In this document: in pieces, positions 12,014 through 54,740 of the stretch
How the letters are laid out: each line of letters opens with the position of its first letter
Position numbering within the stretch: the first letter of the stretch is position 1
NCBI RefSeq assembly: GCF_900104845.1
Contig: NZ_FNSR01000001.1
Coordinates: forward strand, 1,984,001-2,048,000
Origin: Paraburkholderia caballeronis
GTDB lineage: Bacteria; Pseudomonadota; Gammaproteobacteria; Burkholderiales; Burkholderiaceae
Direction of reading: 5' to 3'
Length of the DNA stretch: 64,000 nt
Position numbers and translations under genes: made by a program
The notes under the pieces: generated by a model
Seen by the model: only the letters and a program-made list of their open reading frames with translations
The model's database searches: none
What the model was told of the DNA's origin: nothing

Positions 12014-12027
12014 GGCACATCGATTGC
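12014..12027 (+). promoter_or_regulatory. Candidate sigma-54 promoter
   Basis: GGCACATCGATTGC: -24 GG and -12 GC with exactly 10 bp between, TTGC intact. It lies 95 bp upstream of the Gly-rich exported protein gene. Confidence 0.65.
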
Positions 12028-12121
12028 GAACGATGACGGGGCGCGGTGTGCGCCGTTCACGCGGCACGATACGGCCGCATCCGGCATTCGCAAACAGATT
12101 CACCTGCAAAGGAGAGCGACG

Positions 12122-12526
12122 ATGAGCAGATCGACGAAGACGACGAAGAGACTCGTGGCCTGTGCGTTCACGATGGCTTCGCTGGCCGTTTCGGGCGCGG
12201 TGTTCGCGCAGGGCGGCGGGGCGGGGGGCGGCGGCGGCGCGGGCGGTAGCGCCGGGGGCGGCGCGGGCGTGGGCGCCGGCGGCGGGACGGCCGGCGGCGC
12301 GGCGGGCCTGGGCGGCAACGGGGGCGCGACCGGCGGCGCGAACAGCAGCGGTTACGGCTCGCCGGGCGTGACCGGCACCGGCGGCGGCGTGGGGACCGGC
12401 ACCGGCGCGACGCCGAACGCCGCGCCCGGCATGCGCGCGGGTCCGTCGATGAATGACGGCACGATGGGTTCGCCGCGCCCGACTCCGCCGGCCGCCATGC
12501 CGTACAACAACGACAACGGCCAGTAG
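12122..12526 (+). CDS. Exported glycine-rich small protein
   Basis: A 134-residue protein. A clear Sec signal peptide (basic KTTKR, then a hydrophobic core and AVFA) probably ends near residue 29. The mature part is low-complexity: about 50 residues almost entirely Gly and Ala, then a Gly/Thr/Pro tail ending NNDNGQ. ATG 12122 follows AAAGGAGAGCGACG. I do not recognise a family. The composition resembles other small periplasmic or surface stress proteins, including the one at 32449, which also has a Gly run after its signal peptide and a sigma-54-like promoter. Confidence 0.75.
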   Translation: MSRSTKTTKRLVACAFTMASLAVSGAVFAQGGGAGGGGGAGGSAGGGAGVGAGGGTAGGAAGLGGNGGATGGANSSGYGSPGVTGTGGGVGTGTGATPNAAPGMRAGPSMNDGTMGSPRPTPPAAMPYNNDNGQ

Positions 12527-12675
12527 CCTGGTGCGGCGCAACGAATCGACGTCGGCGAAACCGCCGCGAACGGGCTCGCGCAAGACGCTCGTTGCCGCCG
12601 CGCCACCCCAACCGGACATGCCGCGCTTTCATGCGCGGCGTGCCGGTCCCGATCGAACGCCAATCCGTATCACCA

Positions 12676-12689
12676 GGCACCCGGTTTGC
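12676..12689 (+). promoter_or_regulatory. Candidate sigma-54 promoter
   Basis: GGCACCCGGTTTGC: near-consensus -24/-12 spacing and TTGC. It lies 69 bp upstream of the PfpI/DJ-1 gene. Confidence 0.7.
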
Positions 12690-12757
12690 TGACTGGGAAC
12701 CGGACATCGGCGGAGCGTGTATCCGCCCGCCGCAATCAAGGATGAGGAGGTAATGCA

Positions 12758-13315
12758 ATGGCTGCCAAGCTCGATAAATGCAGGGTCGCGATTCTGGCCG
12801 TGGACGGCTTCGAGGAAGCCGAACTGACCGAGCCGCATCGCGCGCTGACCGACGCCGGCGCGAAGGTCGATGTGATCTCGCAGAAGGACGGCGAGATCCA
12901 GGGGTTCCGTCACGTGGACAAGGGCAGCAAGGTGAAGGTCGATCGCACCTTCGGCAGCGCGCGCGCCGACGACTACGACGCGGTCGTGCTGCCGGGCGGC
13001 GTCGTCAACGGCGACGCAATCCGGCTGATCCCGGAGGCGCAGGCGTTCGTGAAGTCCGCGAACGCGGCGCACAAGCCGATCGCGGTGATCTGTCATGGCG
13101 GCTGGCTGCCGGTGTCGGCGGGCATCGTGAAGGGCCATACGATGACGAGCTGGCCGACGCTGCAGGACGACATCCGCAACGCGGGCGGCACGTGGGTCGA
13201 TCAGCGCGTCGTGCGCGACGGCAACTTCATCACGAGCCGCAAGCCGGACGACCTGCCGGCGTTCAATGCCGAACTGATCTCGTGTCTCGCGGCGCAGAGC
13301 GGGGCCGCAGCGTGA
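12758..13315 (+). CDS. DJ-1/PfpI family protein (general stress protein 18-like)
   Basis: A 185-residue single-domain protein. The nucleophile elbow is AVICHGGW with Cys112 followed by His113, and the partner acidic residue is in DGFEEAEL (Glu19/20). This gives the PfpI/YhbO/YfkM type. Family members act as cytoplasmic stress proteins, with reported deglycase, glyoxalase or chaperone activity; the exact reaction is debated. The next gene starts inside its stop codon (GTGA overlap at 13312-13315), so the two are translationally coupled. A sigma-54-like promoter precedes it. Confidence 0.92.
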   Translation: MAAKLDKCRVAILAVDGFEEAELTEPHRALTDAGAKVDVISQKDGEIQGFRHVDKGSKVKVDRTFGSARADDYDAVVLPGGVVNGDAIRLIPEAQAFVKSANAAHKPIAVICHGGWLPVSAGIVKGHTMTSWPTLQDDIRNAGGTWVDQRVVRDGNFITSRKPDDLPAFNAELISCLAAQSGAAA

Positions 13316-13653
13316 GCGCCGACGTGTCCACCGCGCGCGACGGACAGGACCGGGCCGGCGCGGGCAACGCCGCCGCGCCGCGCGTGACGTTTCCGGACGA
13401 GCCGCCGGTATTCGACGGCGCGAACATGCTGATGCGCTTCGTCGTCGATCTGGACGGCGAGCCGGTCGTCTGCGCGATCACCGCCGAGGCGCTCGAAGAC
13501 CACTTCGGCGCGGATTCCGCACTCGAAGCGGTGTTGTCCGCCGCGTTTGCGCGCGGCCGCGCGCGCATCTGCGCCGCCTGCGCCGAGGCGATCCGCGAGA
13601 CCGGCGGCAGCGTCGTGCTGCACAGCGGACGCTTCCGCGCGGCCAGCGGCTGA
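13312..13653 (+). CDS. DUF1488-like small protein
   Basis: A 113-residue protein starting at GTG 13312, which overlaps the previous stop by 4 bp. Residues about 25-110 fit the DUF1488 pattern (VTFPDEPPVFDGANMLMRF, then AITAEALEDHFGA). The first 24 residues are an Ala/Gly/Arg-rich extension. Two cysteines form ICAAC near residue 83. The function of the family is unknown. Coupling to the PfpI gene suggests co-expression under stress. Confidence 0.75.
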   Translation: MSADVSTARDGQDRAGAGNAAAPRVTFPDEPPVFDGANMLMRFVVDLDGEPVVCAITAEALEDHFGADSALEAVLSAAFARGRARICAACAEAIRETGGSVVLHSGRFRAASG

Positions 13654-13713
13654 AGCAGGACGGGCGACGCGCGTAGCGCAATGCGCTGCGCGTGCCGCCT
13701 GCAAGGAGGTCAT

Positions 13714-14301
13714 ATGTCTTTGATCGTGGCAGGACGCTTCACGACCTTCGACGACGCCGAGACGGCCATCGGCCGCCTGCGCTCGAACGGTTTCGTGGAC
13801 GAGGACATCTCGCTGTTCTACGTGAACCCGGGCGGCCAGCACGCCCGGTTTCCGGTCGGCGGCGACCGTTATGCGGACCCGCAGGCGCGCACGGCGTCGC
13901 TCGGCGCAGGCGCGGGCGTCGCGGCGGGCGCGCTGATCGGCATCGTCGTCGCGCTCGCGCTGTCGTATTTCCTCTTTCATACGCTGCTCGTGCTGGCGAT
14001 CGCGGCCGGGATCGGCGCCTATGTCGGCTCGCTCGCGGGCGCGATGTGGCAGACCCGCGGCGGCGGCCATCGTCCCACGCCGGACGCCGCGCACGAACCC
14101 GACGGCACGCCGCGCACGCGCGAATCCGGCGTGCTGCTGGCGGTGCACGTCAGTCCGCAGACCCAGCAGCGCGCGGCCGAACTGCTGCGCGACGCGGGCG
14201 GCATGGAGGTCGAGCGCGCATCGGGGCGCTGGCAGGATGGCCGCTGGGCCGACTTCGATCCGACCCGCACGCTCCAGCCGGTCGGCCGGATGAACGGCTA
14301 G
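13714..14301 (+). CDS. Membrane protein with glycine-zipper core (general stress protein 17M-like)
   Basis: A 195-residue protein with the ideal ribosome site AAGGAGG 5 bp before ATG 13714. Residues 1-45 (RFTTFDDAETAIGRLRSNGFVDEDISLFYVN) resemble the N-terminal fold of YflT-type stress proteins. Residues about 65-120 are a Gly/Ala-rich double hairpin (GAGAGVAAGALIGIVVA; AIAAGIGAYVGSLAGAMW), probably membrane-inserted. The C-terminus (VLLAVHVSPQTQQRAAELLRDAGG) is a second small alpha/beta unit. It follows the PfpI-DUF1488 pair by 60 bp. Its role is unknown beyond the stress-protein resemblance. Confidence 0.75.
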   Translation: MSLIVAGRFTTFDDAETAIGRLRSNGFVDEDISLFYVNPGGQHARFPVGGDRYADPQARTASLGAGAGVAAGALIGIVVALALSYFLFHTLLVLAIAAGIGAYVGSLAGAMWQTRGGGHRPTPDAAHEPDGTPRTRESGVLLAVHVSPQTQQRAAELLRDAGGMEVERASGRWQDGRWADFDPTRTLQPVGRMNG

Positions 14302-14428
14302 GCGGCATCGGTATCGGCATCGGCGCGCAGCCGCTTTGTCGAGCGGCCCGCGCCGGAAAGCGCCGCGCAGCAGGCAGTGAAAAAACGCAGTACGGCAAAC
14401 GGGCACGACCCGAAAACAGGAGGTAGTC

Positions 14429-14593
14429 ATGCTTCAATACGCAGCCATCTTTTTCGTGATCGCGATCATTGCCGCCGTGTTCGGCTTCGGCGGCATTGCG
14501 GCCGGCGCAGCGGCCATTGCGAAGGTGCTGTTCTTCATCTTCCTCGTGATCTTCCTCGTCACGCTGCTGCTCGGCGTCGTGCGGCGCGGTTAG
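14429..14593 (+). CDS. DUF1328 small membrane protein
   Basis: A 54-residue protein with two membrane helices: [21 protein letters not shown], then a short Ala-rich loop, then [18 protein letters not shown]. This is the DUF1328 (YtjA-like) pattern, complete at the usual family length. ATG 14429 is preceded by ACAGGAGGTAGTC. These proteins are often encoded near stress genes, and their function is unknown. The following 123 bp to ku contain a GC-rich hairpin (14643-14662) and a second one (14667-14679) running into TTTTCTTT, a possible weak terminator. Confidence 0.88.
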
Positions 14594-14716
14594 TGCGCGC
14601 GCCCCGTAACGGCGTAACGACCCGAACGACGGGCAGGACCGGCGCCGCGCAGCGGCGCGGCGTCGGACCCGGCCCGGGTTTTCTTTCGCGTGGGATTCGC
14701 CAGGAGGACTGACGCC

Positions 14717-19614: not shown

Positions 19615-19628
19615 GCAATGGCCGTTCC
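19615..19628 (-). promoter_or_regulatory. Candidate sigma-54 promoter
   Basis: GGAACGGCCATTGC on the minus strand, identical to the site at 32220-32233. It lies 54 bp upstream of the PRC-barrel gene. Confidence 0.75.
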
Positions 19629-19943: not shown

Positions 19944-20115
19944 CGTTGCTCTCCATCGCGGGACGGTTGGGTGGCGGTCGTGCGCAGTCGATGCCCGGCG
20001 CCGTCCCGCAGGCGGCGCGCGCGCAACCGGTATGGCGCCTGTCGTCGTAAGCGGCATGCGCCGCGCCTGCATCGGGAAGCGCGCATCCCGCGTGCCGCCT
20101 TTCGCCGCGCCGACG

Positions 20116-26529: not shown

Positions 26530-26901
26530 GATGGCTGCCGCGTGGAAGCGCCGCGCGCACGCGGCGGCTCGGGTCGCGCCGCGCCGAATGCAGCGCGGCG
26601 GCAGGCGTATGAGCGAGCATCGAATGGCGGGCTTTCGGGGCCGAAAGCAGCGGGGACTCGCGATGACGCGATGCAGGAGGGAAGGTGTGCCTGTGCACGG
26701 GACGCTCCTTGATCGAACGAAAACGTCGTCCGGCCGTGTTGCCTGGAAAAAAACGGATGCACGGTCGAAGCGGATGCCGGTCAGCAAACCGCGTGCCGCC
26801 GTGCGCCGACGCGCGGCGGAACGCGCATCGTTCGCGGCACGCGAACTGCTGAAACGGTTGGCCGATGCTTCACCGACCCGCGATCCCTCCAGGAGGACAC
26901 C
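26530..26901. other. Divergent intergenic region between emrA and an acidic-protein gene
   Basis: About 370 bp. It holds the sigma-54-like site at 26836-26849 for the plus-strand gene. Promoter and true start of emrA should also lie here, but I cannot identify them. Confidence 0.4.
26836..26849 (+). promoter_or_regulatory. Candidate sigma-54 promoter
   Basis: GGCACGCGAACTGC: perfect -24 element GGCACG, -12 CTGC, 10-bp spacing. It lies 53 bp upstream of the acidic-protein gene. Confidence 0.7.
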
Positions 26902-27243
26902 ATGAGCACACTCGACCCCGACAACGATCTGCCGCAACCCGACGTGCCGGGCCGCGACACCGGCGCGCTCGGTCCCGGCGATTCGTCGGACAGCGGCAGC
27001 GACTTCGCCGGCGCGAAGCGCCACGACTTCGACCGCGACACCGAACTCGACAATCACGCGCTCGAAAGCGGCGAAGCGGAGGCGGCGAGCGACAGCGACC
27101 GCTCGGGCACCGGCGAACGCGCGGCGGCGGACGGCGACGAGAACCTGTCGCCGGATGCGGACGTGCTGCCGGACCGGATCGATTCGTTTCCGTCGGCGGA
27201 TGAAGCCGACGAAGCGGACGAAGCGGACGAGCGCGATGAATGA
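26902..27243 (+). CDS. Small acidic protein, unknown function
   Basis: A 113-residue, strongly acidic and probably disordered protein (many Asp, Glu, Ser, Gly). It ends in a repeat of Asp-Glu-Ala (EADEADEADERDE). The ribosome site CAGGAGGACACC directly precedes ATG 26902. It has no recognised domain, Cys or Trp. A near-consensus sigma-54 promoter lies upstream, so it belongs with the small stress proteins of this island. Confidence 0.72.
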   Translation: MSTLDPDNDLPQPDVPGRDTGALGPGDSSDSGSDFAGAKRHDFDRDTELDNHALESGEAEAASDSDRSGTGERAAADGDENLSPDADVLPDRIDSFPSADEADEADEADERDE

Positions 27244-27281: not shown

Positions 27282-27295
27282 GGTACGACGGTTGC
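27282..27295 (+). promoter_or_regulatory. Candidate sigma-54 promoter
   Basis: GGTACGACGGTTGC: correct spacing, ACG and TTGC present. It lies 118 bp upstream of the next small gene. Confidence 0.65.
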
Positions 27296-27412: not shown

Positions 27413-27655
27413 ATGAACGTGGAAACCCAGGTCAGCTATGGCGGCTGCACGATCCGGCCGATCGTGACGGCGACGGACGACGGCCGGTTCATCGCATCGG
27501 CGGTCGTCACCGGTCCGCACGCGCGCGACGGACAGACGCTCGGCGCGCAAGCCGATTTCGGCCGGCGCGAAGAAGCGGCCGATCGCGCCATCGAACTGGC
27601 GATCGTGGACATCGACCGCAGGCGGTCCGTCCCGGACGGGCAACGGGATCGCTGA
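27413..27655 (+). CDS. Small conserved-looking protein, unknown function
   Basis: An 80-residue protein with a compact alpha/beta look: VSYGGCTIRPIVTATDDGRF, then an Ala/Glu helix (RREEAADRAIELAIVDIDRR). GCGGAGG precedes both ATG 27413 (2 bp away) and GTG 27419 (8 bp away). By spacing GTG 27419 may be the true start; the difference is two residues. I do not recognise the family. A sigma-54-like promoter lies at 27282. Confidence 0.68.
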   Translation: MNVETQVSYGGCTIRPIVTATDDGRFIASAVVTGPHARDGQTLGAQADFGRREEAADRAIELAIVDIDRRRSVPDGQRDR

Positions 27656-29947: not shown

Positions 29948-29986
29948 GATGGGCCTCCTGGCGGTAGCGGTTCGATGAGGCGATGA

Positions 29987-30028
29987 GGTGGTGCAATGAA
30001 GGTGGTGCAATGAAGGTGGTGCAATGAA
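29987..30028. repeat. Three perfect 14-bp tandem repeats in the SDR leader
   Basis: The unit GGTGGTGCAATGAA occurs three times exactly (29987-30000, 30001-30014, 30015-30028), with a partial fourth. Read on the minus strand, each unit carries TTGCACC, the same bases as the -12 region of the adjacent sigma-54-like promoter at 30032. Confidence 0.95.
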
Positions 30029-30031
30029 GGT

Positions 30032-30045
30032 GCAAACCGCGTGCC
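30032..30045 (-). promoter_or_regulatory. Strong candidate sigma-54 promoter
   Basis: GGCACGCGGTTTGC followed by A: it matches the textbook GGCACG-N4-TTGCA exactly in the conserved positions. It lies 85 bp upstream of the SDR gene, with the tandem repeats at the expected transcription start. Confidence 0.8.
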
Positions 30046-30774: not shown

Positions 30775-32094
30775 TCAACGCTCGGACGCGCGCAGCCGCT
30801 GATACCAGCCCATCAGCGGCGCGGCCGAGACGCCGTGCACGACCACCGACGCGAGAATCACGCCGAGCGCCGGCGCGGCGAGGACCGCGATTTCGCCGCG
30901 CGGCGCGGCCTCGAAGGCATACGCGAGGTAATACACGGAGCCGATGCCGCGTATGCCGAACCAGCCGATGAGACGCCGCTGCGCGCGCGTCGCCGGCGAC
31001 CCCGCGAGCGCCACCACCACCGCGAACGGCCGGATCACGAGAAACAGCAGCGCGGCGAGCACGAAACTCGTCCACGCGAACACGTCCGCGCCGAGGCCGG
31101 CCAGCACGTTGCCCGCGACGGTCATCACCGCGGCCTCCGCGATCCGCTCCATCTCGATCGTGAAGCCGAGCACCGACTGCGCCATGTACGCGTGCGCCTT
31201 GTCCGGGTGCGATGCGGTCGCGGTGACGTCGGTCGAATCGATCGTGCCGACCACCTCGTCCGGCGGCCGCGCGCCGCTCGCGCGATGCTCGACGCGCCGC
31301 ATCGTGACGCCCGCCGCGAACACCGCGATGAACCCATAGGCGCCGACCAGCTGCGCGCAGCCGAACGACAGCGCGATCAGCCCGAGCGCGAAAAAACCTT
31401 CGAGGCCGAGCGCCTTTTCGTAGTGCGTGCGCAGGTAAGCGACCGTGTGCGTGGTGAGCCAGCCGAGCGCCGCGCCGATCGCGAGCGCCCCGACGATGCC
31501 CCACAGCGCATGCAGCGTGAACGTGGCGGCCGCGCCCGGCTCGTGCAACGAAGGGTCGTGCGCGGTCAACGCGAGGCCGAGCAGCGCGAACGGCATCGCG
31601 ATGCCGTCGTTCACGCCGCCCTCGGCGGACAGCGCGAAACGCACGAAATCGAGGTCGCCGGGGTTGCGCACCTGCACGTCGTGCGCGAGCACCGGGTCGG
31701 TCGGCGCGAGGATCGCCGCGAGCAGCAGCGCCGCGCCGAAGCCGACCGGCAGCAGCCACGCGGCCGCGAGCGCGAGCAGCGGCACCGTCACCAGCATCGC
31801 GACGATGCCGAGCCGCACCGGCAGCCGCCACAGCCGGTTGCCGAAGTCGACGCGCAGACGCAGCCCGATCGCGAACAGCGACACGAGCAAGGCGATCTCG
31901 GTCATCACGCGCAGCGTGTGCGCGTCGCGCGCCAGATCGATCTGCACGAAACCGACCACCGGCGCGCCGAGCGCGAAGCCGATCGCGAGGTAGAACATCG
32001 ACGCGCTGCACGGCAACTGCTTCAGCGTCGACGCGGCCAGCGCCATCACGACCAGCACCGCGCCGGTCAGCACGAACCACAGCGCCTCATGCAT
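30775..32094 (-). CDS. CPA1-type Na+(K+)/H+ antiporter
   Basis: A 439-residue protein with about 12 membrane helices. It has the conserved ion-binding motifs APTDPVLAHDVQV (about residue 130) and EGGVNDGIAMPF (Asn-Asp pair of CPA1 antiporters, about residue 157). It exchanges monovalent cations for protons at the inner membrane. ATG 32094 lacks its own ribosome site but lies inside the stop of a 30-codon leader frame (32087-32179) that has a good one, which suggests translational coupling. A longer start at 32142 is possible. A sigma-54-like promoter is at 32220. Confidence 0.9.
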   Translation of the reverse strand: MHEALWFVLTGAVLVVMALAASTLKQLPCSASMFYLAIGFALGAPVVGFVQIDLARDAHTLRVMTEIALLVSLFAIGLRLRVDFGNRLWRLPVRLGIVAMLVTVPLLALAAAWLLPVGFGAALLLAAILAPTDPVLAHDVQVRNPGDLDFVRFALSAEGGVNDGIAMPFALLGLALTAHDPSLHEPGAAATFTLHALWGIVGALAIGAALGWLTTHTVAYLRTHYEKALGLEGFFALGLIALSFGCAQLVGAYGFIAVFAAGVTMRRVEHRASGARPPDEVVGTIDSTDVTATASHPDKAHAYMAQSVLGFTIEMERIAEAAVMTVAGNVLAGLGADVFAWTSFVLAALLFLVIRPFAVVVALAGSPATRAQRRLIGWFGIRGIGSVYYLAYAFEAAPRGEIAVLAAPALGVILASVVVHGVSAAPLMGWYQRLRASER

Positions 32095-32179
32095 CGGCGG
32101 TGTGGCGCATGCGGAGCATCGTTCCGGACGACTGCGTTTCATGCCGTAGCGGCTGTTCGCGCGAGAGCGGGTTCATCAT
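32087..32179 (-). CDS. Possible 30-codon leader ORF coupled to the antiporter
   Basis: ATG 32179 follows CGGAGCCC. The frame codes 30 residues (starting MMNPLSREQPLRHE) and ends at TGA 32087-32089. That stop lies within the first codons of the antiporter gene (8-bp overlap, ATGCATGA). The antiporter start has no ribosome site of its own, so reading through this leader could deliver ribosomes to it. No family match is expected at this length. Confidence 0.45.
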   Translation of the reverse strand: MMNPLSREQPLRHETQSSGTMLRMRHTADA

Positions 32180-32219: not shown

Positions 32220-32233
32220 GCAATGGCCGTTCC
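32220..32233 (-). promoter_or_regulatory. Candidate sigma-54 promoter (antiporter-udgX)
   Basis: GGAACGGCCATTGC, identical to the site of the PRC-barrel gene. It lies 41 bp upstream of the leader ORF and 126 bp upstream of the antiporter start. It is divergent from the site at 32353. Confidence 0.75.
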
Positions 32234-32352: not shown

Positions 32353-32366
32353 GGAACGGACATTGC
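32353..32366 (+). promoter_or_regulatory. Candidate sigma-54 promoter
   Basis: GGAACGGACATTGC: same -24 element and TTGC. It lies 83 bp upstream of the exported small protein gene and is divergent from 32220-32233. Confidence 0.7.
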
Positions 32367-32448: not shown

Positions 32449-32757
32449 ATGAACACACGTACCACGCTGATAGCCGCATCGATGGCGGCCCTGCTGGCCG
32501 CAGCCGGTTCCGCGTTCGCCGCGGGGCCGGGCGGCGGCGGAGAGAACGAAAACGGCGCGACCGGCGCGGGCACCGGCGCCGATGCGAGCGGCGTCTACTC
32601 GCCGCCGACGCGAGGCATCGAGCAGGGCGCGACCGCCGAGGGCAGCACGAAGGGCGTGCGCACGTCGCATAAGCGCATGCATCACGCGAAGAAGCCGATG
32701 AACGACACGACGAACATGCCGGGCGCGGACGCGAGCAGCGACACGAAGGGGCAGTGA
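32449..32757 (+). CDS. Small exported protein
   Basis: A 102-residue protein. The Sec signal peptide (NTRTTLIAASMAALLAAAGS, cleavage probably after AFA at residue 24) is followed by a Gly run (GPGGGGENENGATGAG) and a His/Lys patch (SHKRMHHAKKPMN). The ribosome site AAAAGGAGCTTGACTG precedes the ATG. It resembles the exported Gly-rich protein at 12122 in layout. Its stop overlaps the next start (TGATG), so the three genes to 34378 are one operon under the sigma-54-like promoter at 32353. Confidence 0.8.
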   Translation: MNTRTTLIAASMAALLAAAGSAFAAGPGGGGENENGATGAGTGADASGVYSPPTRGIEQGATAEGSTKGVRTSHKRMHHAKKPMNDTTNMPGADASSDTKGQ

Positions 32758-42309: not shown

Positions 42310-43602
42310 TCAGCCGAACGCGCGCAGCGTCGCGCCGCCCGCCGCCGCGACGCGCGGCTCGCGGTCCGGGTCCGCGCGCGGCGGCGCGAGTTGCAGGTAG
42401 ACGTCCTCCAGTTCGCGCGCGATGCCGCGCCACGTGAAGTGCGCGTTCGCGCGTGCGCGGCCCGCTTCGCCCATCTGTTGCGCGCGCGCCGGATCGCGGC
42501 TCAGGTGTTCGAGGCGCTGCGCGAGCGCGTCCGGGTCGCGCGGCGGCACCAGAAAACCGGTCTCGCCGTGGCGCACCGTATGGCGAATCCCGCCGACGTC
42601 CGAGCCGATCACCGGCGTCGCGCACGCCATGGCCTCGACCGGCGTGATGCCGAACGGCTCGTACCACGGCGTCGTCACGAACACGTCGGCCGCGCTGTAG
42701 TAGTAGCGCAGCAGTGCGCGGTCGCGGCGGCCGACGAACGTCACCTGGTCGTCGATCCCGCCGCGATGCGCGACGCCGCGCAGCCGCGCGATCTCCGGCG
42801 TCGCGATCTCGTTCGGCGTTTCCGCGTCGCCGCCGACCACGTACAGCTGCGCGCGCGTGCCATAACGACGGCGCAGCGCGCCGATGCCGGCCACCACGTT
42901 GTCGATGCCCTTGCGCGGCACGAGGCGGCCCAGTTGCAGCACGATGAACGCGTCGCGCGGCCAGCCGAGCGCGTCGCGCGCATCGTGGCGCGCGACCGGA
43001 TGGAACTCGCCGGGATCGAACCCGCATGCGACGAGCGAGATCCGCGCCGGGTCCGCGCGATACAGCTCGACCAGATCGCTTTCATCGGCCGGGCATTCGG
43101 CGATCACGCGATCCGCGCGGCGCACGAGTTCGTCCTCAATTGCGAAACGCTCGTCCGGAAAGCCGTCGTCCGCGCCCTGGTGCAGCCGGCGCACGCGGCC
43201 GAGCGCATGGAACGTCATCACGAGCGGCACCTTCAGCGTGTCCTTCACCTTCAGCGCGGCGAGGCCCGACATGAAGAAGTTCGCGTGGATCACGTCGTAC
43301 GGGCGGCGCTCCTTGCGGCAGAAGCCGACCAGAAACTCCGCGAACGCGGGCATGTACGGCAGCAGCCGTTCCTTCGGCAACTGCATCGGCGGACCGGCGG
43401 GGACGTGGATCACGCGCACGCCGTCCATGTCCGAGACCAGCGGCAGCAGCGCACGGTCGCGCCGCGTGAACACGTCCACCTGATGCCCGGCGCGCAGCAA
43501 CTGGCGCGCGACGTGAGCGACGTACACGTTCTGTCCGCCGGTATCGACGCCGCCCGCGACGGCGAGCGGCGACGCATGTTCACTGACGAGGGCGATCTTC
43601 AT
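42310..43602 (-). CDS. GT4 glycosyltransferase (sucrose-phosphate-synthase/MshA-like)
   Basis: A 430-residue GT-B enzyme. It begins KIALVSEHASPLAVAGGVDTGGQNVYVAHVAR (given here as the start KIALVSEHASPLA and the loop GGVDTGGQNVYV), the acceptor-domain signature of this subgroup. The donor domain has LGRLVPRKGIDNVV and the Glu motif YEPFGITPVEAMACATPVIGS. It is the first gene of the eight-gene glycan operon. ATG 43602 follows AAGGAAATCCGCA. A strong sigma-54-like promoter lies 69 bp upstream. Confidence 0.9.
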   Translation of the reverse strand: MKIALVSEHASPLAVAGGVDTGGQNVYVAHVARQLLRAGHQVDVFTRRDRALLPLVSDMDGVRVIHVPAGPPMQLPKERLLPYMPAFAEFLVGFCRKERRPYDVIHANFFMSGLAALKVKDTLKVPLVMTFHALGRVRRLHQGADDGFPDERFAIEDELVRRADRVIAECPADESDLVELYRADPARISLVACGFDPGEFHPVARHDARDALGWPRDAFIVLQLGRLVPRKGIDNVVAGIGALRRRYGTRAQLYVVGGDAETPNEIATPEIARLRGVAHRGGIDDQVTFVGRRDRALLRYYYSAADVFVTTPWYEPFGITPVEAMACATPVIGSDVGGIRHTVRHGETGFLVPPRDPDALAQRLEHLSRDPARAQQMGEAGRARANAHFTWRGIARELEDVYLQLAPPRADPDREPRVAAAGGATLRAFG

Positions 43603-43670: not shown

Positions 43671-43684
43671 GCAGTTGGTGTGCC
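43671..43684 (-). promoter_or_regulatory. Candidate sigma-54 promoter of the glycan operon
   Basis: GGCACACCAACTGC, preceded by T (TGGCACA): consensus -24 element, CTGC at -12. It lies 69 bp upstream of the first glycosyltransferase gene. Confidence 0.72.
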
Positions 43685-43801
43685 ACCCCCCGCGAAGCCG
43701 CGCGCGGCGCGGTGATGCGGGGTTTGGCGAAGGTCGGGATGACTGCCGGATGCGGATCGCGTGCGCGGCAGAGGCCAGCCGCCGCTGTGGCATTCCCTGT
43801 T

Positions 43802-43820
43802 TTTACATGGCGCTTGTAAA
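43802..43820. promoter_or_regulatory. Palindrome TTTACA-N7-TGTAAA (candidate operator)
   Basis: A perfect 6-bp inverted repeat with a 7-bp spacer, AT-rich in a GC-rich intergenic region between divergent units. It could bind a dimeric activator or repressor; no specific regulator is deduced. Confidence 0.5.
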
Positions 43821-43879
43821 TACGCGGGACGTGGGCCGCTTTTCGTGAACACGCCCGACGATTAGCGCGGTCGCGACCG

Positions 43880-43893
43880 GGCGCGCGCCTTGC
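43880..43893 (+). promoter_or_regulatory. Weak candidate sigma-54 promoter of the ABC fusion gene
   Basis: GGCGCGCGCCTTGC: spacing and TTGC fit, but the GC-rich context makes a chance match likely. It lies 38 bp upstream of the start codon. Confidence 0.35.
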
Positions 43894-43930: not shown

Positions 43931-46624
43931 ATGACCGCTGCAACCGAACGGAACGCACAACGCTTCGTGAGGCGACGCCTCGCGCGCGATCTCGCGCAGG
44001 CGTTGTGGTTGCATCGCGGCGCGACGTTCGCGGCCGCCGCGCTGATGATCGTCGGCCGGCTGTGCGCCGTCGCGGTGCCGATCGCGCTGAAGCATCTGGT
44101 GGACGGGCTCTCGCACGTGCCGGTGCAGGTCGTCGTGCCGGTGTTCGTCGTGCTCGCGTATGCGCTGCTGCGGTTTCTCGGCGACGCGTTGAGCGAGGCG
44201 CGCGACGTCGCGTTCAGCATCGTCACGCAGCGCGCGGTCGCGTCGTTTCGCGAACGCACGTTCGCGCACCTGCACCGGCTCGGCGCGCGTTTTCATGCGG
44301 GGCGCGAGACCGGCGCGATCGTGCGCGACGTGCAGAAAGGCTCGGACGGCATCGGCTTCCTGCTCGGCACCGCGCTGTTCGCGGTGCTGCCGACGCTGCT
44401 CGAAATCGGCGTCGTCGTCGCGATCGTCGCGGGCCGTTATTCGTCGGCGTTCACGCTGGTGATCGGCCTGACCTTCGTCTGTTACGCGATCCACACGTCG
44501 ATCTTCGCGCGGCGGCGGCTCGTGTTCCAGCGCGAGGTGAACCGGCTCGAAGCGCAGGCGGACAGCCGGCTCGTCGACAGCCTGCTGAATCAGGACACCG
44601 TGAAGTATTTTTCGAGCGAGCCGCACGAAGTGGAGCGGCTGCGCGGCGTGCTCGACCGCTGGGTCGACGCGCGGCTCGCGAACCAGCGCGCGCTGACCGC
44701 GCTGCACGTCGGCCAGAGCGCGGTGATCGCGGCCGGCATCGCGGCGACGATGCTGTTCGCGGTGCAGTACGTCGGCACCGGGCAGATGACGGTCGGCGAC
44801 CTGGTGCTGGTGAACGCGTACATCATCCAGGTGTGCGCGCCGCTGAACACGCTGGGCTTCGTGTTTCGCGAGGCGAACGACGCGCTGGTCGACATCGAAA
44901 GAATGTTCGGGATCCTGTCGGTGCGCGGCACGGCCGGCGAGGACGTCGACGTGCCGGACGCAAAACCGCTCGCCGTCGCGCGCGGCGAGGTGGCGTTCCG
45001 GCACGTCGATTTCGGCTACGATCCGGAGCGGCTGGTGCTGCGCGACATCGACTTCACCGCCGCGCCGGGCTGCACGCTCGCGGTGGTCGGCGGCAGCGGC
45101 TCCGGCAAATCGACGCTGATGAAGCTGCTGTTCCGTTTCTACCGGCCGTTGCAGGGCGCGATCGAGATCGACGGCCAGGACCTCGCGACGCTCACGCAGA
45201 AGAGCCTGCGCGACGCGATCGGCATCGTGCCGCAGGATACCGTGCTGTTCAACGACACGATCGCGTACAACATCGCGTACGGCCGCCCGGACGCGACGCG
45301 CGCGGACGTCGTGCGCGCGGCGCGCGCCGCGCAACTGGACGAGCTGATCGAGCGGCTGCCGGACCACTACGACACGCGCGTCGGCGAGCGCGGCGTGCGG
45401 CTGTCGGGCGGCGAGCGGCAGCGGATCGCGATCGCGCGCGCGATCCTGAAAGACCCGCGGATCATGGTGTTCGACGAGGCGACCTCGGCGCTCGACACGC
45501 GCTCGGAGCGCGCCATCCAGCGCGAACTGACGCGGCTCGCGCAGGGGCGCACGACGATCGTGATCGCGCATCGGCTGTCGACCGTCGTCGATGCGCACCG
45601 CATTCTCGTGATGGAGCATGGGCGCATCGTCGAGCAGGGCACGCACGACGAACTGCTCGCGCGCGACGGCGTGTACGCGAAGATGTGGGCGATGCAGTGG
45701 CAGCAGGGCGACCTCGAACACGCGGAGCGGCGGCTCGCGGCGCGGCCGGTCGAGGCGGCCGCGTTCGTCGCGCGGATCGAGGATCGGCTGCGCGACGACG
45801 CGGCGGCGGCCGGCGTCACGCTCGCGATGACCGCGCCGGACGATCTGCCGTGCGTCGTCGCGGACGCGGACGCGTTGCAGCAGGGGCTGCTGCAACTGGT
45901 GTCGAACGAGATCGCGTGTGCGCCGCGCGGCGGCCGCATCGAGATCGACGTGCGCCGCGAAGCGAATCACGCGCTGATCCGCGTGGCCGGCGGCGGCGGG
46001 CAACCCGCGCCGCTCGACGAACGCACGGCCGCCGCCATCGAGGCCGCGCTGCGCGATGCGGGCGCCACGTTCACGCTCGATCCGGACGGCCCGCGCATCG
46101 GTTATGCGGTCGTGCTGCCGGTGCTCGCGGTCGCGACGGCGGCGGACCGGACGCCGCCCGCGCCGCGCGCGCTCGACGGCGTGGCGGTGATGGTGCTCGA
46201 CGACCAGGAGGAAACGCGCGATGCGCTCGATGCGCTGCTGTCGCTGCACGGCGCGACGGTGAGCGTCGCGGCGTCGGGCGAGCAGAGCCTCGCGCGGTTG
46301 CGCGAGACGCCGCGCGCCGCGTGGCCCGACGTGCTGTTATGCGATCTGGTGCTGGCCGACGACGAGGACGGCCGCGACGTGCTGGCCGCGATCCGCGTGC
46401 TGGAATCGCAACGAGAGCAGTCGCTGGCCGACCGGGGCGGGACGGCGCGCCTGCCCGCGATCGCGCTGACCGGTTATGCGGACGACGCGCGGCCGGGCGG
46501 CTCGCGGCCCGAACTCGACGCGCAGTTCGCGCGTCATCTGCGCAAGCCGGTGCCGCCGGACACGCTGATCGAAGCGATCCTCGCCGCCGCGCGCCGGCCG
46601 GTCAGGACGCCGCGCATCCTATGA
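43931..46624 (+). CDS. ABC exporter (ATM1-like) fused to a reduced HATPase region and a receiver domain
   Basis: An 897-residue single frame. Residues about 25-315 form a six-helix exporter membrane domain of the ABCB7/HMT1/Atm1 type. About 348-590 is a complete ABC ATPase: Walker A GGSGSGKST (387-395), signature LSGGE (491-495), Walker B IMVFDE (511-516), H-loop His547. Residues about 605-735 resemble a histidine-kinase ATPase: N-box-like LVSNEIACAPRGGRIEID (Asn659, Glu660), but the G1 box reads VAGGGGQP without its Asp, so ATP binding is doubtful, and no HisKA His box is seen. About 750-885 is a full receiver: Asp757/758, phospho-acceptor Asp805, Thr847, Lys872. The linked order is exporter, degenerate sensor-kinase tail, receiver. 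It begins divergently from the glycan operon. Confidence 0.9.
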   Translation: MTAATERNAQRFVRRRLARDLAQALWLHRGATFAAAALMIVGRLCAVAVPIALKHLVDGLSHVPVQVVVPVFVVLAYALLRFLGDALSEARDVAFSIVTQRAVASFRERTFAHLHRLGARFHAGRETGAIVRDVQKGSDGIGFLLGTALFAVLPTLLEIGVVVAIVAGRYSSAFTLVIGLTFVCYAIHTSIFARRRLVFQREVNRLEAQADSRLVDSLLNQDTVKYFSSEPHEVERLRGVLDRWVDARLANQRALTALHVGQSAVIAAGIAATMLFAVQYVGTGQMTVGDLVLVNAYIIQVCAPLNTLGFVFREANDALVDIERMFGILSVRGTAGEDVDVPDAKPLAVARGEVAFRHVDFGYDPERLVLRDIDFTAAPGCTLAVVGGSGSGKSTLMKLLFRFYRPLQGAIEIDGQDLATLTQKSLRDAIGIVPQDTVLFNDTIAYNIAYGRPDATRADVVRAARAAQLDELIERLPDHYDTRVGERGVRLSGGERQRIAIARAILKDPRIMVFDEATSALDTRSERAIQRELTRLAQGRTTIVIAHRLSTVVDAHRILVMEHGRIVEQGTHDELLARDGVYAKMWAMQWQQGDLEHAERRLAARPVEAAAFVARIEDRLRDDAAAAGVTLAMTAPDDLPCVVADADALQQGLLQLVSNEIACAPRGGRIEIDVRREANHALIRVAGGGGQPAPLDERTAAAIEAALRDAGATFTLDPDGPRIGYAVVLPVLAVATAADRTPPAPRALDGVAVMVLDDQEETRDALDALLSLHGATVSVAASGEQSLARLRETPRAAWPDVLLCDLVLADDEDGRDVLAAIRVLESQREQSLADRGGTARLPAIALTGYADDARPGGSRPELDAQFARHLRKPVPPDTLIEAILAAARRPVRTPRIL

Positions 46625-47209: not shown

Positions 47210-47223
47210 GCATCGGCCGTTCC
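47210..47223 (-). promoter_or_regulatory. Candidate sigma-54 promoter (copper protein)
   Basis: GGAACGGCCGATGC: -24 element as in the other GGAACG sites, ATGC at -12. It lies 40 bp upstream of the Csp-like gene. Confidence 0.62.
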
Positions 47224-47790: not shown

Positions 47791-47804
47791 GCAAGCGCCG
47801 TACC
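47791..47804 (-). promoter_or_regulatory. Candidate sigma-54 promoter (response regulator)
   Basis: GGTACGGCGCTTGC: ACG and TTGC in place, 10-bp spacing. It lies 149 bp upstream of the receiver gene. Confidence 0.62.
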
Positions 47805-49017: not shown

Positions 49018-49484
49018 GCGGTCCTCCCTTTTCAGTGACAGTGGAACAGCGCACTTTCGTCGAAGCACCGACCGTTCCGCGGACGCTTCTTGCTCCCTTC
49101 TTGCCGCACGGGCATGGACGTTGCAACCAGTCTGGCGTCGACGACTTCGGAAGCTAGGGATGAAAGCCGCTACGATCGCCATCACGCGTCGCTGCGGCCC
49201 GTTGCTGATCGTCGCGACGATCGCCCCGGGGCGCGATGGGCGGTGCGGGCGCGCGGACAACACGTCCGGCATGAGCGTCCCGGCGCGAGCGGCTGACCGG
49301 CCCGGCCGTCACGCCGGCCCCCGCGCCGCCGACGGACGCGAGCCAGTAGCCGCCGTAGCAACCACGACGAACAACTCGCGCGAAGCCGGCGACCGGTAAC
49401 GAACGAAACCGGCTTTACACGATTTACAGCGCCGCAGGAAGTGGGACGAACCGTTCGACGAACGCGGCGCGGGAGAACCGAACG
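49018..49484. other. Divergent intergenic region, CBS gene / gene at 49485
   Basis: About 470 bp without a gene. The minus-strand sigma-54-like site (49065-49078) is the only clear element. The plus-strand half shows no convincing promoter. Confidence 0.45.
49065..49078 (-). promoter_or_regulatory. Candidate sigma-54 promoter (CBS gene)
   Basis: GGAACGGTCGGTGC: GGAACG at -24, GTGC at -12. It lies 48 bp upstream of the CBS gene. Confidence 0.58.
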
Positions 49485-51095: not shown

Positions 51096-51109
51096 CGCCG
51101 TCGCGCCGC

Positions 51110-51508: not shown

Positions 51509-51576
51509 AAGACCTCCACCATGCGGCTCGAACGGAGAAAAGGGCGGCGCACGGATGCGGGCCGGCTACAACCAGC

Positions 51577-53055
51577 TTACTGCCTGCGCAGCTCGGCGGG
51601 CGGCACTTTCATCGATTGCCGGTATTTCGTGACCGTACGCCGCGCGACGACTACGCCCTGTTCCGCGAGCATCCGCGTGAGCACGACGTCGGACAGCGGC
51701 TCGCGCCGGTCCTCGGCCGCGATCATCTCGGTGATCAGCGCGCGCACCGCGGCGGCCGAGCAGGTGCCGCCGCTCTGCGTCTCCAGTTCGCGCGGGAAAA
51801 ACCGCTTGAATTCGAAGGTGCCGCGCGGCGTCGCCATGTACTTGTTGCCGGTCGCGCGCGAGATCGTCGATTCGTGCAGCCCGAGTTCGTCCGCGACGTC
51901 GCGTAGTTGCAGCGGCCGCAGCGCGATTTCGCCGTACTGGAAAAACGCCTTCTGTCGCGCGACGATGCATTCGCCGACCCGCAGGATCGTCTGGCAGCGC
52001 TTGTGCGCGTTCCGGATCAGCCAGCGCGCCTCCTGCAACTGCTGCGCGAGCGGCGAGCGCGCGCCGTCGCCGGACTGCGCGTACAGCTCCGCATACAGCG
52101 AATGGATGCGCGCGCGCGGCATCACGGCCGGGTTGATCGCGACGACGAGCCGGTTGCGCACCTGCCGCACGATCACGTCCGGAATCACGTAACCGCCGTC
52201 CGTGCGCCCGTATTCGTTGCCGGGGCGCGGGTCGAGCCGGCGCACGAGCGCGGTCGCGACGCGCAGCGCCTCCGGGTCGCAGCCGAGGTGGCGTTGCAGC
52301 TCGCCGTGCTCGCGGCGCGCGAGCCGTTCGAGATGATGGGTGACCATCTCGCGCGCGAGATCGCGGCCGGGCGTCGACGCGGGCAGTGCGTCGAGTTGCA
52401 GCGCGAGGCATTCGCCGAGCGAGCGCGCGCCGATGCCGGGGCGGTCGAGCGACTGCACGACGCGCAGCGCGACGCGCAGTTCCGCTTCGGTCAGCGGCGG
52501 CATCATGTCGGCGACCGGCGCGAGGTCCGCGAGGTCCTGGCGCAGATAACCGTCGTCGTCGAGCGCCTCGATCACGACGCTCGCCGCCACGCGGTCGCGG
52601 CCCTGCAGGCGCGACAGCCGCAGCGATGCGTGCAGTTGCTCGTGCAGCGTCAGTTGCGCGCTGGTCCAGTCGGCGGGGTCGGCTGCGAAATCGTCGTTGT
52701 CGCGCGTGCCCGACGGCGATCCGGACGGGCGCAGCGGCATGTCCGCCGGCTCCGCGTAACCGCCGTCGTCGGGCAAGGCGTCGGACAGCGTGTCGGACGC
52801 ATCGCGGGTCAGCGCGCCGTCGTCGGTCGCCGGCTCGGCGGCGGTGTCGGACGGCGGCGCGGCGGATTCGCCCGGGCCGGCTGCTTCGTCCTGCGAAGGA
52901 GGCGCGTATTCGAGGAACGGATTCGTTTCGAGCGCTTCGCGCAGTTCCTGCTGGAATTCAAGGGCCGACAACTGCAACAGGCGCACCGCCTGTTGCAGTC
53001 GCGGCGTGAGCGCGAGGTGCTGCCGGGTGTGCAACGCGAGGGTCGGGGGCGGCAT
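51577..53055 (-). CDS. rpoN: RNA polymerase sigma-54 factor (probably a second copy, rpoN2)
   Basis: A 492-residue protein. Region I is intact: LALHTRQHLALTPRLQQAVRLLQLSALEFQQEL (Gln/Leu-rich activator-response region, shown as its two halves HTRQHLALTPRLQQAVRLLQ and LSALEFQQELREALETNPFL). An acidic Region II follows (about 50-130). The core-binding domain, the helix-turn-helix (LRDVADELGLHESTISRATGNKY) and the RpoN box ARRTVTKYR (471-479) are complete. The usual housekeeping neighbours (lptB, hpf, ptsN) are absent, which suggests an additional copy. A sigma-54-type promoter lies 49 bp upstream, so it may regulate itself. ATG 53055 follows AAGGACCGTC. Confidence 0.95.
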   Translation of the reverse strand: MPPPTLALHTRQHLALTPRLQQAVRLLQLSALEFQQELREALETNPFLEYAPPSQDEAAGPGESAAPPSDTAAEPATDDGALTRDASDTLSDALPDDGGYAEPADMPLRPSGSPSGTRDNDDFAADPADWTSAQLTLHEQLHASLRLSRLQGRDRVAASVVIEALDDDGYLRQDLADLAPVADMMPPLTEAELRVALRVVQSLDRPGIGARSLGECLALQLDALPASTPGRDLAREMVTHHLERLARREHGELQRHLGCDPEALRVATALVRRLDPRPGNEYGRTDGGYVIPDVIVRQVRNRLVVAINPAVMPRARIHSLYAELYAQSGDGARSPLAQQLQEARWLIRNAHKRCQTILRVGECIVARQKAFFQYGEIALRPLQLRDVADELGLHESTISRATGNKYMATPRGTFEFKRFFPRELETQSGGTCSAAAVRALITEMIAAEDRREPLSDVVLTRMLAEQGVVVARRTVTKYRQSMKVPPAELRRQ

Positions 53056-53103
53056 GACGGTCCTTGCCAGGGTTCGGTTTATCGGAGGAGTGGGCCAGTT
53101 CAA

Positions 53104-53117
53104 GCAACGGCCGTTCC
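53104..53117 (-). promoter_or_regulatory. Candidate sigma-54 promoter of rpoN
   Basis: GGAACGGCCGTTGC: GGAACG at -24 and TTGC at -12. It lies 49 bp upstream of the sigma-54 gene itself and is divergent from the site at 53172. Confidence 0.72.
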
Positions 53118-53171
53118 TGTTTGCGCGTGCGGACGCTGCTTGTGGCCGGTGGTTGTCGCCGGGCGGCACGG

Positions 53172-53185
53172 GGAACGGCCGATGC
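53172..53185 (+). promoter_or_regulatory. Orphan candidate sigma-54 promoter
   Basis: GGAACGGCCGATGC, identical to the copper-protein site at 47210. It points right, antisense into the decayed oxidase gene, with no plus-strand gene before 54830. Confidence 0.5.
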
Positions 53186-53275
53186 TCGAACGCAGGCCGC
53201 CTCGCGCGGCCCGCGGTACGCGCCTTACCGGTATCGCTAGAAAAATGGAAGCGTCGAAGCGAAAGCGGGCCCGCG

Positions 53276-54031
53276 TCAGCGATGAATCGCATCGCGCAGC
53301 CGCGCGACCTTGGCGGCGGACACGGGTGGCGCGTCGTTGCCCCATGCGCCGCGCACGAAGTTGATCGTCTATGCGAGCCGGTCGCGAAAGCCTGGCATCC
53401 TTTGCGGCGAGTCGTCGCGGCTTGCGCTGCCTTCGATCACGATCCGCAGCGCGCTGGCCGGATCGCTCGCGAGCACAAGCGCGCGGCCCGCCAGCGCCGA
53501 CATCCAGAACGCGTGCACGACTCCGCGCTGTCGAGTTCGACCGCGACCGGCACGCCGACCGGGAGGGGGATTTCATGCGCGGTATCGAACGCCGCACCCT
53601 TGGGGGCCGGCGTTGTCCGGCTACGCCGCTTTCCACCATCAGTCGTTCGAGGTCACGCGCAGCATGAACGCCGCGCGCTGCGGCGGCTGCGCGATGGCCG
53701 CCAGCACGCGCAGCATCGCGACGAGCGCGCCGAACAGCAGCACGGTCGAGATCACGGTGCCGATGCCGACGATCGCGTTGGCCGTGCGTGCGCCGTCGTC
53801 GGCATCGCTCGCGGGACGCCTGTGCATCAGCGCGATCGCAAGCAGCGCCGCGATCACGATGCAGACCAGCACGCCCAGCGCCGCGAGGCCCGAGTCGAGG
53901 GCGCGCACCGGCTGCGCGACCGGGCCGTCGTCAGGCAGGGAGTCCGCGAGTCGCGTGTCGGCGCGACCTGCGCAGGAGGCTGCGGCGAGCGTGGCCGCCG
54001 TGGCGGGGAGGACTGCCGCGCGGCGCTTCAT
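53276..54031 (-). pseudogene. Decayed cytochrome c oxidase subunit II gene with fused cytochrome c tail
   Basis: The first 130 codons (54031-53639) look like a CoxB start: signal/lipobox (LAAASCAGRAD), two membrane helices, then AFMLRVTSND. A TGA then interrupts the frame where the WWW motif should be (next codons WWKAA, then TAG, PDNAG). After a frameshift the conserved HEIPLPVGVPVAVELDSA appears (TANEIxLPVGxPV of subunit II). A second frameshift leads to VVHAFWMSALAG (VxHSFWxPxLAG). Sequence then jumps, at the LAG motif, to the end of a cytochrome c domain: DPASALRIVIEGSASRDD, QRMPGFRDRLA, a TAG, then INFVRGAWGNDAPPVS. At least three stops, two shifts and an internal deletion make it non-functional. 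No subunit I gene is nearby. Confidence 0.82.
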
Positions 54032-54064
54032 CGCCGCTCGGTCCGCTTCGGGGCCCCGCGCCGT

Positions 54065-54304
54065 TCAGGGCTCGTGCGCGAGATCGGGTTCGAGCGTGGC
54101 CGCGATTTCCTCGGCCATCCGCGCGGCCTGATCGAGCGCGTCGGCCTCGCGCGGCACGCTCGTGCTGCCTTTCGCGGTCGATACGAGGCGGTCGGACGCG
54201 CCGCGTTCGACCACGTTCACGCACCAGAAGAACCCGCCGTCCGCGGCTTCGATCGCGCTCGGCAGAATCAGGAAATGACCTTTCAGAATGCGCTGGGTTC
54301 TCAT
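54065..54304 (-). CDS. Small hypothetical protein
   Basis: A 79-residue protein. It starts MRTQRILKGHFLILPSAIEA, has a beta-type middle (DGGFFWCVNVVERG) and ends in an acidic helix (DALDQAARMAEEIAATLEPD). The ribosome site is weak (AGCGAGCAATACG). The composition is protein-like, and I recognise no family. It lies between the DUF2795-like gene and the oxidase pseudogene, same strand. Confidence 0.6.
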   Translation of the reverse strand: MRTQRILKGHFLILPSAIEAADGGFFWCVNVVERGASDRLVSTAKGSTSVPREADALDQAARMAEEIAATLEPDLAHEP

Positions 54305-54362
54305 CGTATTGCTCGCTTTCGTCGCTTTCGTAGCAGTTTGCGTGGAGCGCGCGGCTCCGGAT

Positions 54363-54617
54363 TCACGCGTGGGCGGCGATCGATGCCGACACCTCGTTGA
54401 AGCTGCCGAACGATTCGTCCGGCAGCGTGCGCAGCGCATCGACAACGTCGGCGGGCGCGTCGTGCTCGCGCGCGCTGTCGATCAGCGTGTCGCGGCGGGC
54501 AGGGTACGACACGTCGTCGATGGCCTGCTGCACGCGCTGCTTCAATGCGTCGAGCGCGGCGTCGTTCGGCGGACGCTGGCCGGATGAGCCGGCGGCGGGC
54601 GCGGGAGTGGAGGGCAT
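54363..54617 (-). CDS. DUF2795-like small protein
   Basis: An 84-residue protein. A Pro/Ala/Ser-rich start of about 25 residues is followed by the DUF2795 core: LKQRVQQAIDDVSYPARRDT, LIDSAREHDAPADVVDALRTLP. It is a paralogue of the protein at 48324. ATG 54617 follows GAGGTGAATCCG; a GTG at 54626 would add three residues. A sigma-54-like promoter lies at 54667. The function is unknown. Confidence 0.83.
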   Translation of the reverse strand: MPSTPAPAAGSSGQRPPNDAALDALKQRVQQAIDDVSYPARRDTLIDSAREHDAPADVVDALRTLPDESFGSFNEVSASIAAHA

Positions 54618-54666
54618 CGGATTCACCTCGGTAGCGGTCGGCGCGGATGCGCCGCTTTCGCGTGCA

Positions 54667-54680
54667 GCAGGCCGCGTGCC
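54667..54680 (-). promoter_or_regulatory. Candidate sigma-54 promoter (DUF2795 gene)
   Basis: GGCACGCGGCCTGC: perfect GGCACG, CTGC at -12. It lies 50 bp upstream of the gene and is divergent from 54727-54740. Confidence 0.7.
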
Positions 54681-54726
54681 CGAATGGCCTTAATGACGAT
54701 GGGCGAAGCGGTCCGCTTCATCGCAC

Positions 54727-54740
54727 GGCACGTCGATTGC
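54727..54740 (+). promoter_or_regulatory. Strong candidate sigma-54 promoter (DUF4142 gene)
   Basis: GGCACGTCGATTGC: full GGCACG-N4-TTGC match. It lies 90 bp upstream of the DUF4142 gene. Confidence 0.78.

Follow-up and report, generated by a model that had tools for sequence, protein, structure and literature searches.

The question raised by this locus is what switches on a set of stress-type and surface genes scattered around an rpoN gene, which encodes sigma-54, in Paraburkholderia caballeronis. The locus lies in a stretch of 64,000 nucleotides (contig C1, C1:1984001-2048000), called the window below, in a genome of three contigs and 7,115,141 bases with a GC content of about 70%, and many of its genes are preceded by sites of the form GG-N10-GC. 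An earlier note on this DNA had read these sites as a sigma-54 regulon of stress and surface character that includes its own sigma factor, and all three parts of this proposal are borne out by a spacing control in the window and by conservation of the exact spacing in other genomes. We consider it probable that these sites act as genuine -24/-12 promoters and belong to a conserved sigma-54 regulon, general-stress-like with additional surface glycan content, and built around RpoN2, a second sigma-54. Taken separately, the assignment of the predicted sites as sigma-54 promoters is near certain, their belonging to a conserved regulon is very likely, and RpoN2 is the likely main reader, judging from its position, the occurrence of the island in two genera, and katE of Burkholderia pseudomallei.

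Sigma-54-type sites in the window

We list 20 sites (Table 1), from which a weaker candidate at 20096 (-) is excluded. Nineteen of them face an open reading frame (ORF) on the same strand, with a plausible ribosome site and a start 51-162 bases after the GG, and the only one that does not, at 53172 (+), corresponds to the single exception in orientation that had been claimed. Many relatives have a BON gene at this place, and the site is possibly a remnant or the promoter of an RNA. The sites had been placed between 12014 and 54740, where they are indeed present, but more are found at 10120-11967 and elsewhere in the genome. The identical 14-mer reported before two unrelated genes is GGAACGGCCATTGC, which precedes the PRC-barrel gene (19628, -) and the antiporter-UdgX genes (32233, -).

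As a control, both half-sites were kept and the GG-GC distance was altered by -2, -1, +1, or +2 (hereafter wrong spacings). A sense-upstream site scoring at least 20 is found before 17 of the 61 called genes of the window at the true spacing, compared to 2, 2, 4, and 0 at the respective wrong spacings, which upholds the exact spacing initially described. Antisense sites of the same 61 genes number 9 at the true spacing and 3, 1, 1, and 1 at the wrong ones. Two of the 17 sites (genes 9494 and 19740, minus strand) are outside the list of 20, and several listed sites are absent from the 17 because of the called gene starts.

Conservation in related genomes

Relatives are represented by 80 rpoN2 loci from named Paraburkholderia, some of them filed as Burkholderia sp., and 143 more genomes of the same genus were searched. 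For a family survey, genes were called by script in these 80 loci, the window, and two further loci, then clustered, and the 38 families occurring in at least 10 loci were retained; as close relatives are among the loci, family counts across the 80 loci are not independent events. The mean fraction of sense sites in the 38 families is 0.195 at the true spacing, compared to 0.042, 0.047, 0.035, and 0.030 at the wrong spacings and 0.093 in antisense. Five families have a sense site in at least 70% of their loci at the true spacing, versus 1, 0, 0, and 0 at the wrong ones and 1 in antisense. Counted in relatives only, the site is present before rpoN2 in 72/80 loci, before the divergent BON gene in 50/66, and before the DUF2383, PRC-barrel, and PfpI genes in 32/38, 34/36, and 34/34, respectively. 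When the promoters are aligned at the GG, the strongest conservation falls on the -24/-12 bases, with further conserved positions just upstream for rpoN2 and some downstream for DUF2383.

All 30 orthologous glycan-operon promoters that were scored, which are the best 30 of 48 close matches and comprise the own one, have the site (wrong spacings 3-5, cut-off 19.5). Genes inside the operon behave otherwise, two of them having sites in 0/19 and 2/19 loci at the true spacing. For four partner genes of the operon, anchors were found in 4-8 of 20 loci: PIG-L homologues beside the operon (40-44% identical) have the site in 6/6 anchored loci, homologues of the glycosyltransferase (57-62% identical) in 6/8, a DUF892 gene in 4/5, and homologues of the ABC transporter with receiver domain in 4/4, all with 0 at the wrong spacings. 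The ABC transporter homologues adjoin the operon in 19 of the 20 relatives examined. The family of the small protein 26902-27243 (25 genus loci near rpoN2, 59-72% identical) has sense sites in 14/25 and antisense sites in 22/25. Outside the window, the proposed members in this genome are katE and genes for trehalase, Ysc84-domain, glycine-zipper, DUF3005, and cupin proteins and a protein just below the DUF3022 cut-off; of 16 such sites examined in 15 stretches, seven were judged to lie before a plausible stress-type gene.

A similar set of genes surrounds rpoN2 on a plasmid of Burkholderia multivorans, including SDR, DUF2795, DUF4142, DUF892, UdgX, receiver, PRC-barrel, CBS, DUF1328, Ku, LigD, antiporter, DUF3175, PfpI, and treY, and 18 of 48 window queries match 17 proteins of this region. 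After cut features were dropped (32 of 34 scored in B. multivorans, 24 of 26 in B. pyrrocinia), the site is found before 14/32 genes in B. multivorans, with none at the four wrong spacings, and before 8/24 in the rpoN2 region of B. pyrrocinia, with 0, 2, 0, and 0. DUF3175 and CBS genes have sites in both species. From this Burkholderia comparison, we read the gene set as an old island around RpoN2 whose individual members gain and lose their promoters.

The rpoN genes

The rpoN gene of the window had been taken for a second copy, which has to be corrected: the genome has three rpoN genes, and this is the third. The protein carries the three Sigma54 domains AID (PF00309), CBD (PF04963), and DBD (PF04552), all above cut-off, and is 45% identical to the product of an rpoN1-like gene at C1:3547505 and 69% to that of a copy on C2. 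At least two rpoN matches are found in 141 of the 144 genomes of the genus survey, own included. In a tree of 118 sequences, from which identical, short, or stop-containing proteins were removed, the C2 copy falls within an RpoN2 group of 31 members, beside which the window copy forms a long branch; the joint group has a support of 0.947. By sequence, the window copy is related to the RpoN2 found across the genus but has diverged from it. Another member of the genus (G117) has two RpoN2-like genes among three matches (C1:3868629 and C2:3409720), each 65% identical to the window copy.

The RpoN box reads ARRTVTKYRQ in the window and C2 copies and ARRTVAKYRE in the own RpoN1; among 171 boxes, duplicates and RpoN1 loci included, 69 read ARRTVAKYRH, 60 ARRTVTKYRQ, 26 ARRTVAKYRE, and 16 otherwise. 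The C2 copy has the arrangement usual in the genus, with TGGCATG-N4-TTGCG at 44 bases and a divergent site at about 260 bases ahead of the matched frame, and the promoter of the window copy reads AGGAACGGCCGTTGCT, which resembles the promoters of the target genes.

Which sigma factor reads the promoters

In the mechanism that we propose, rpoN2 would itself be expressed from a sigma-54 promoter, with RpoN1 probably acting on it first, after which RpoN2 would serve the stress promoters, each of them presumably needing an activator encoded elsewhere in the genome. The proposed members are the genes for PfpI/DJ-1, PRC-barrel, BON, DUF2383, DUF892, and CBS proteins, katE, trehalase, and the glycan operon with the ABC transporter, to which the antiporter-UdgX operon would be added here. 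The third, divergent RpoN2-type gene lies inside the stress island, behind a promoter of the same class as those of its proposed targets.

The strongest alternative is that the promoters are real but read mainly by RpoN1, with RpoN2 and the window copy as side branches or targets, which we regard as unlikely although it has points on its side. One is katE, whose site is kept in 12/12 loci of genus g15 (wrong spacings 1-4), where one rpoN gene and no RpoN2 was found per genome, so RpoN1 may serve such promoters. This phyletic test went against a dependence of katE on RpoN2 only, and we discarded that idea. Another is that, according to the accessible part of PMC4371752, expression of rpoN2 in Ralstonia requires RpoN1 and the rpoN2 mutant has no specific phenotype, the authors stating that the role of rpoN2 'remains enigmatic'. 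On the other hand, the available text of PMC4745423 reports that no katE expression could be detected at 48-72 h in B. pseudomallei mutated in rpoN2, though this species has two RpoN, and the base preceding the GG also separates rpoN2 from its proposed targets (see below).

Counts for katE leave out four catalase loci without a KatE anchor and 14 paralogue loci. In the genus, katE has the site in 25/26 loci (wrong spacings 1-3), the sole miss being the own katE, because its site lies further upstream. Genus g23, also with one rpoN found per genome, has the site in 1/4. An earlier score that weighted the T before the GG, applied to a wider stretch, gave 19/26 in the genus (wrong spacings 0-3) and 6/16 in g15 and g23 taken together (wrong spacings 0-5). 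The own katE is 74-75% identical to katE of g23, versus 60-68% to the long katE genes of its own genus, a pattern that hints at acquisition by transfer.

Besides the g15 katE sites and the Ralstonia mutant, several observations weigh against a conserved regulon built around RpoN2. Some island genes lack a conserved site of their own in the genus (DUF3175 0/23, antiporter 0/16, orf13681 1/32), TopoIB has one in just 19/30 genus relatives, and the PRC-barrel gene of both Burkholderia species is without a site at the cut-off used. Wrong spacings are not always silent, as one family reaches 13/18 at -2 and the epimerase gene of the glycan operon 8/19 at each of two wrong spacings. No shared enhancer emerged from 20 promoters of the own genome, dyads and k-mers not exceeding shuffles. 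When 9 of the 20 matched loci for bacterial enhancer-binding proteins (bEBPs) served as queries, bEBP genes turned up near RpoN2 in 2 of 83 loci. The accessible text of PMC4745423 also mentions that RpoS had earlier been reported to control KatE.

The base before the GG

With promoters scored without regard to the first base, a T precedes the GG in 71/76 of rpoN2's own promoters and in 10/180 promoters of five other families, against a coding background of 476/2728. As orthologues are not independent, this amounts, by family, to one T class versus five non-T classes. In the window, one of the 20 sites has the T, namely the glycan promoter, which is mixed for this base in relatives, and katE has it in 4/25 promoters of the genus and 5/12 of g15. 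This split speaks against RpoN1 as the main reader of the regulon promoters. Together with the variants of the RpoN box, it provides a lead for a two-tier cascade, consistent with the dependence of rpoN2 on rpoN1 in the accessible text on Ralstonia (PMC4371752).

A more specific version, which we put forward tentatively and with more doubt than belief, is a Burkholderia-type general stress response on a dedicated second sigma-54. RpoN1 would read TGG at the rpoN2 promoter and RpoN2, in whose box the last residue is mostly H or Q where RpoN1 has E, would read the T-avoiding promoters, the two tiers being one base apart; the third copy would have joined the target class, closing a self-amplifying loop. 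We also considered that the divergent window copy might have a promoter type to itself, and rejected this because the PRC-barrel genes of relatives have GGAACG as well.

Other explanations of the motif

Eight window matches read GGAACGG and the gene content resembles a stress regulon, which could point to another factor, such as an extracytoplasmic function (ECF) sigma factor whose -35 element would be GGAAC, as known from EcfG-type stress promoters. These promoters combine GGAAC with a CGTT-type -10 element at 16-18 bases. A search for GGAAC-N14-20-CGTT gives five matches in the window, one of them at a listed site, and we rejected the ECF/EcfG reading of the GGAAC sites on this ground. What is conserved is GG-N10-GC, in most cases with TTGC at its end, and the families share no second conserved element at a constant distance; we hold any such other factor to be very improbable.

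The density reported for the motif is not reproduced by shuffles or wrong spacings at good scores. GGNACG-N5-TGC has 22 matches in the window, compared to a mean of 5.44 and a maximum of 12 in 100 shuffles. Genome-wide, GGMACGN5TGCTKNA gives 13 sites, 6 of them in the window (0.9% of the genome), with 7 for the reversed-pattern control; GGMACGN4TTGCT gives 19 matches, 5 in the window (control 7), and GGAACGGN4TGC 39, 8 in the window (control 80). Since these patterns were drawn from the window itself, the concentration there is partly circular, which does not apply to the tests by gene family and by spacing that used other genomes. Chance matches picked by eye in GC-rich DNA would fit the low cut-off density, which does not exceed that of Markov sequence (79.7 versus 75-86 per 100 kb), and the number of sites anywhere in the window (33 versus 13-23 at wrong spacings), but the excess at cut-off 21 (23.4 versus 5-9 per 100 kb) and the sense-upstream excess at the exact spacing, in the window and in relatives, make chance scarcely credible, and we reject it for the site set as a whole. 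The case for the motif rests on position, spacing, and conservation; individual sites such as 12014 and 27282 could be chance matches.

Enhancer and activator

The proposed sigma-54 regulon would need enhancers and activators. Between the divergent glycan and ABC promoters stands GTTTTTACATGGCGCTTGTAAATAC, the sole perfect TTTACA-N7-TGTAAA in the genome, and a similar palindrome (at least 10/12) is found 109-150 bases upstream in 25 of the 30 glycan promoters, a score that 8 of 600 shuffles reach. The space between rpoN2 and the divergent BON gene holds a related element, which ends in TTGTAAAAA; it also occurs before rpoN2 in two Burkholderia loci. Allowing one mismatch, the own genome has 13 other copies, or 14 in total versus 20 in the reversed control; among 11 of the 13 inspected, one has a borderline site (19.5) with the ORF start more than 300 bases off, and the rest have none. 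A TTACA-type match in B. multivorans was rejected as an enhancer, as by eye it resembles a hairpin between two converging genes. Candidate enhancers were seen for the glycan operon and rpoN2 only.

As the earlier note had stated, no bEBP is encoded in the window: the genome has 20 PF00158 matches, none within it. B. pyrrocinia has two genes annotated as sigma-54 regulators at a distance of about 10 kb from its rpoN2.

Features of the window

By Pfam, the window proteins comprise PfpI/DJ-1, DUF1328, Ku, LigD, PRC-barrel, an HlyD-MFS-OEP efflux set, MgtC, SDR, UdgX, an antiporter, the glycan operon, the ABC transporter with receiver domain, DUF326 (Csp-like), a receiver, DUF3175, two DUF2795, CBS, topoisomerase IB, and sigma-54. 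A DUF4142 gene had also been named: the ORF 54790-55410 has no Pfam match, but the frame 54830-55372 shares 44% identity over 140 residues with a protein annotated as DUF4142. Three further features were observed. Short tandem repeats like CCTTCATTGCACCA directly follow the -12 element of the 30045 (-) site, at about 29985-30032 (-); the 30-codon leader ORF 32087-32179 (-), between a sigma-54 site and the antiporter gene, overlaps at its end a possible antiporter start at 32094; and 43931-46624 (+) joins an ABC exporter and a C-terminal response-regulator receiver domain in a single ORF.

Table 1. Predicted sigma-54-type sites and associated features of the window
Feature	Position	Strand	Context
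sigma-54-type site	10120..10133	+	before PIG-L-like gene (start 10171)
sigma-54-type site	11954..11967	-	before glycosyltransferase gene (start 11900)
sigma-54-type site	12014..12027	+	before small ORF 12122-12526
sigma-54-type site	12676..12689	+	before PfpI/DJ-1 gene 12758-13315
sigma-54-type site	19615..19628	-	before PRC-barrel gene (start 19561)
sigma-54-type site	26784..26797	-	before 58-codon ORF and HlyD-MFS-OEP efflux genes
sigma-54-type site	26836..26849	+	before small protein 26902-27243 (no Pfam match)
sigma-54-type site	27282..27295	+	before small ORF 27413-27655
sigma-54-type site	30032..30045	-	before SDR-MgtC genes (start 29947); B. multivorans SDR gene also with site
sigma-54-type site	32220..32233	-	before 30-codon leader ORF, antiporter, UdgX
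sigma-54-type site	32353..32366	+	before small exported protein 32449-32757
sigma-54-type site	43671..43684	-	before glycan operon (first gene 42310-43602)
palindromic candidate enhancer	43799..43823		between divergent glycan and ABC promoters
weaker sigma-54-type site	43880..43893	+	before ABC transporter with receiver domain; 4/4 anchored relatives
sigma-54-type site	47210..47223	-	before DUF326 (Csp-like) gene (start 47170)
sigma-54-type site	47791..47804	-	before receiver-domain gene (start 47642); B. multivorans receiver gene also with site
sigma-54-type site	49065..49078	-	before CBS-domain gene (start 49017), then DUF2795, DUF3175
third rpoN gene (RpoN2-like)	51577..53055	-	from Sigma54 domains, tree, and RpoN box; start set at 53055
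sigma-54-type site of window rpoN	53104..53117	-	before third rpoN gene
divergent sigma-54-type site	53172..53185	+	no gene found behind
sigma-54-type site	54667..54680	-	before second DUF2795 gene (start 54617)
sigma-54-type site	54727..54740	+	before exported protein 54830-55372, DUF4142-like (B. multivorans protein)

Comparison with known systems

The sites resemble known -24/-12 promoters of sigma-54 in the exact GG-N10-GC spacing, the GGCACG/GGAACG and TTGC cores, and the distance to the start codon, and differ from the usual TGGCACG consensus in mostly lacking the T. The enteric RpoS general stress regulon includes katE, trehalose metabolism, and BON/OsmY-like, DUF892/YciF-like, and PfpI-like members. 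The proposed regulon is similar in gene content but, unlike that of RpoS, would stand behind sigma-54 promoters, which require an ATP-driven activator. As such promoters are silent without one, the response would be switch-like and an activator still to be found is implied, which raises the question of why an RpoS-like stress programme would use sigma-54. Among the papers listed by our literature searches, none describes a stress regulon of RpoN2 in these bacteria, as judged by titles and abstract openings. The analysis provides a conserved target list for RpoN2 that can be tested promoter by promoter, and its recurrence in related species suggests a role for a sigma factor described as 'enigmatic'.

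Additional sigma-54 factors are known elsewhere. In Bradyrhizobium DOA9, RpoNp is likewise an additional RpoN, and the accessible part of the paper on it (PMC13207237) suggests that it acts in stress, but it belongs to another bacterial class and is likened here by description only. The several RpoNs of Rhodobacter sphaeroides are reported, in the available text of PMC3162934, to differ in promoter preference at -11, whereas the base preceding the GG would make the difference here. The closest counterparts are the RpoN2 proteins of Ralstonia solanacearum and B. pseudomallei, also second sigma-54 factors, with a sigma-54 site 63 bases before rpoN2 in strain GMI1000 and the dependence of katE in B. 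pseudomallei. As far as their accessible text goes, the papers on these two describe katE and predicted single targets; the present locus differs in having a conserved island around RpoN2 and a third copy of the gene.

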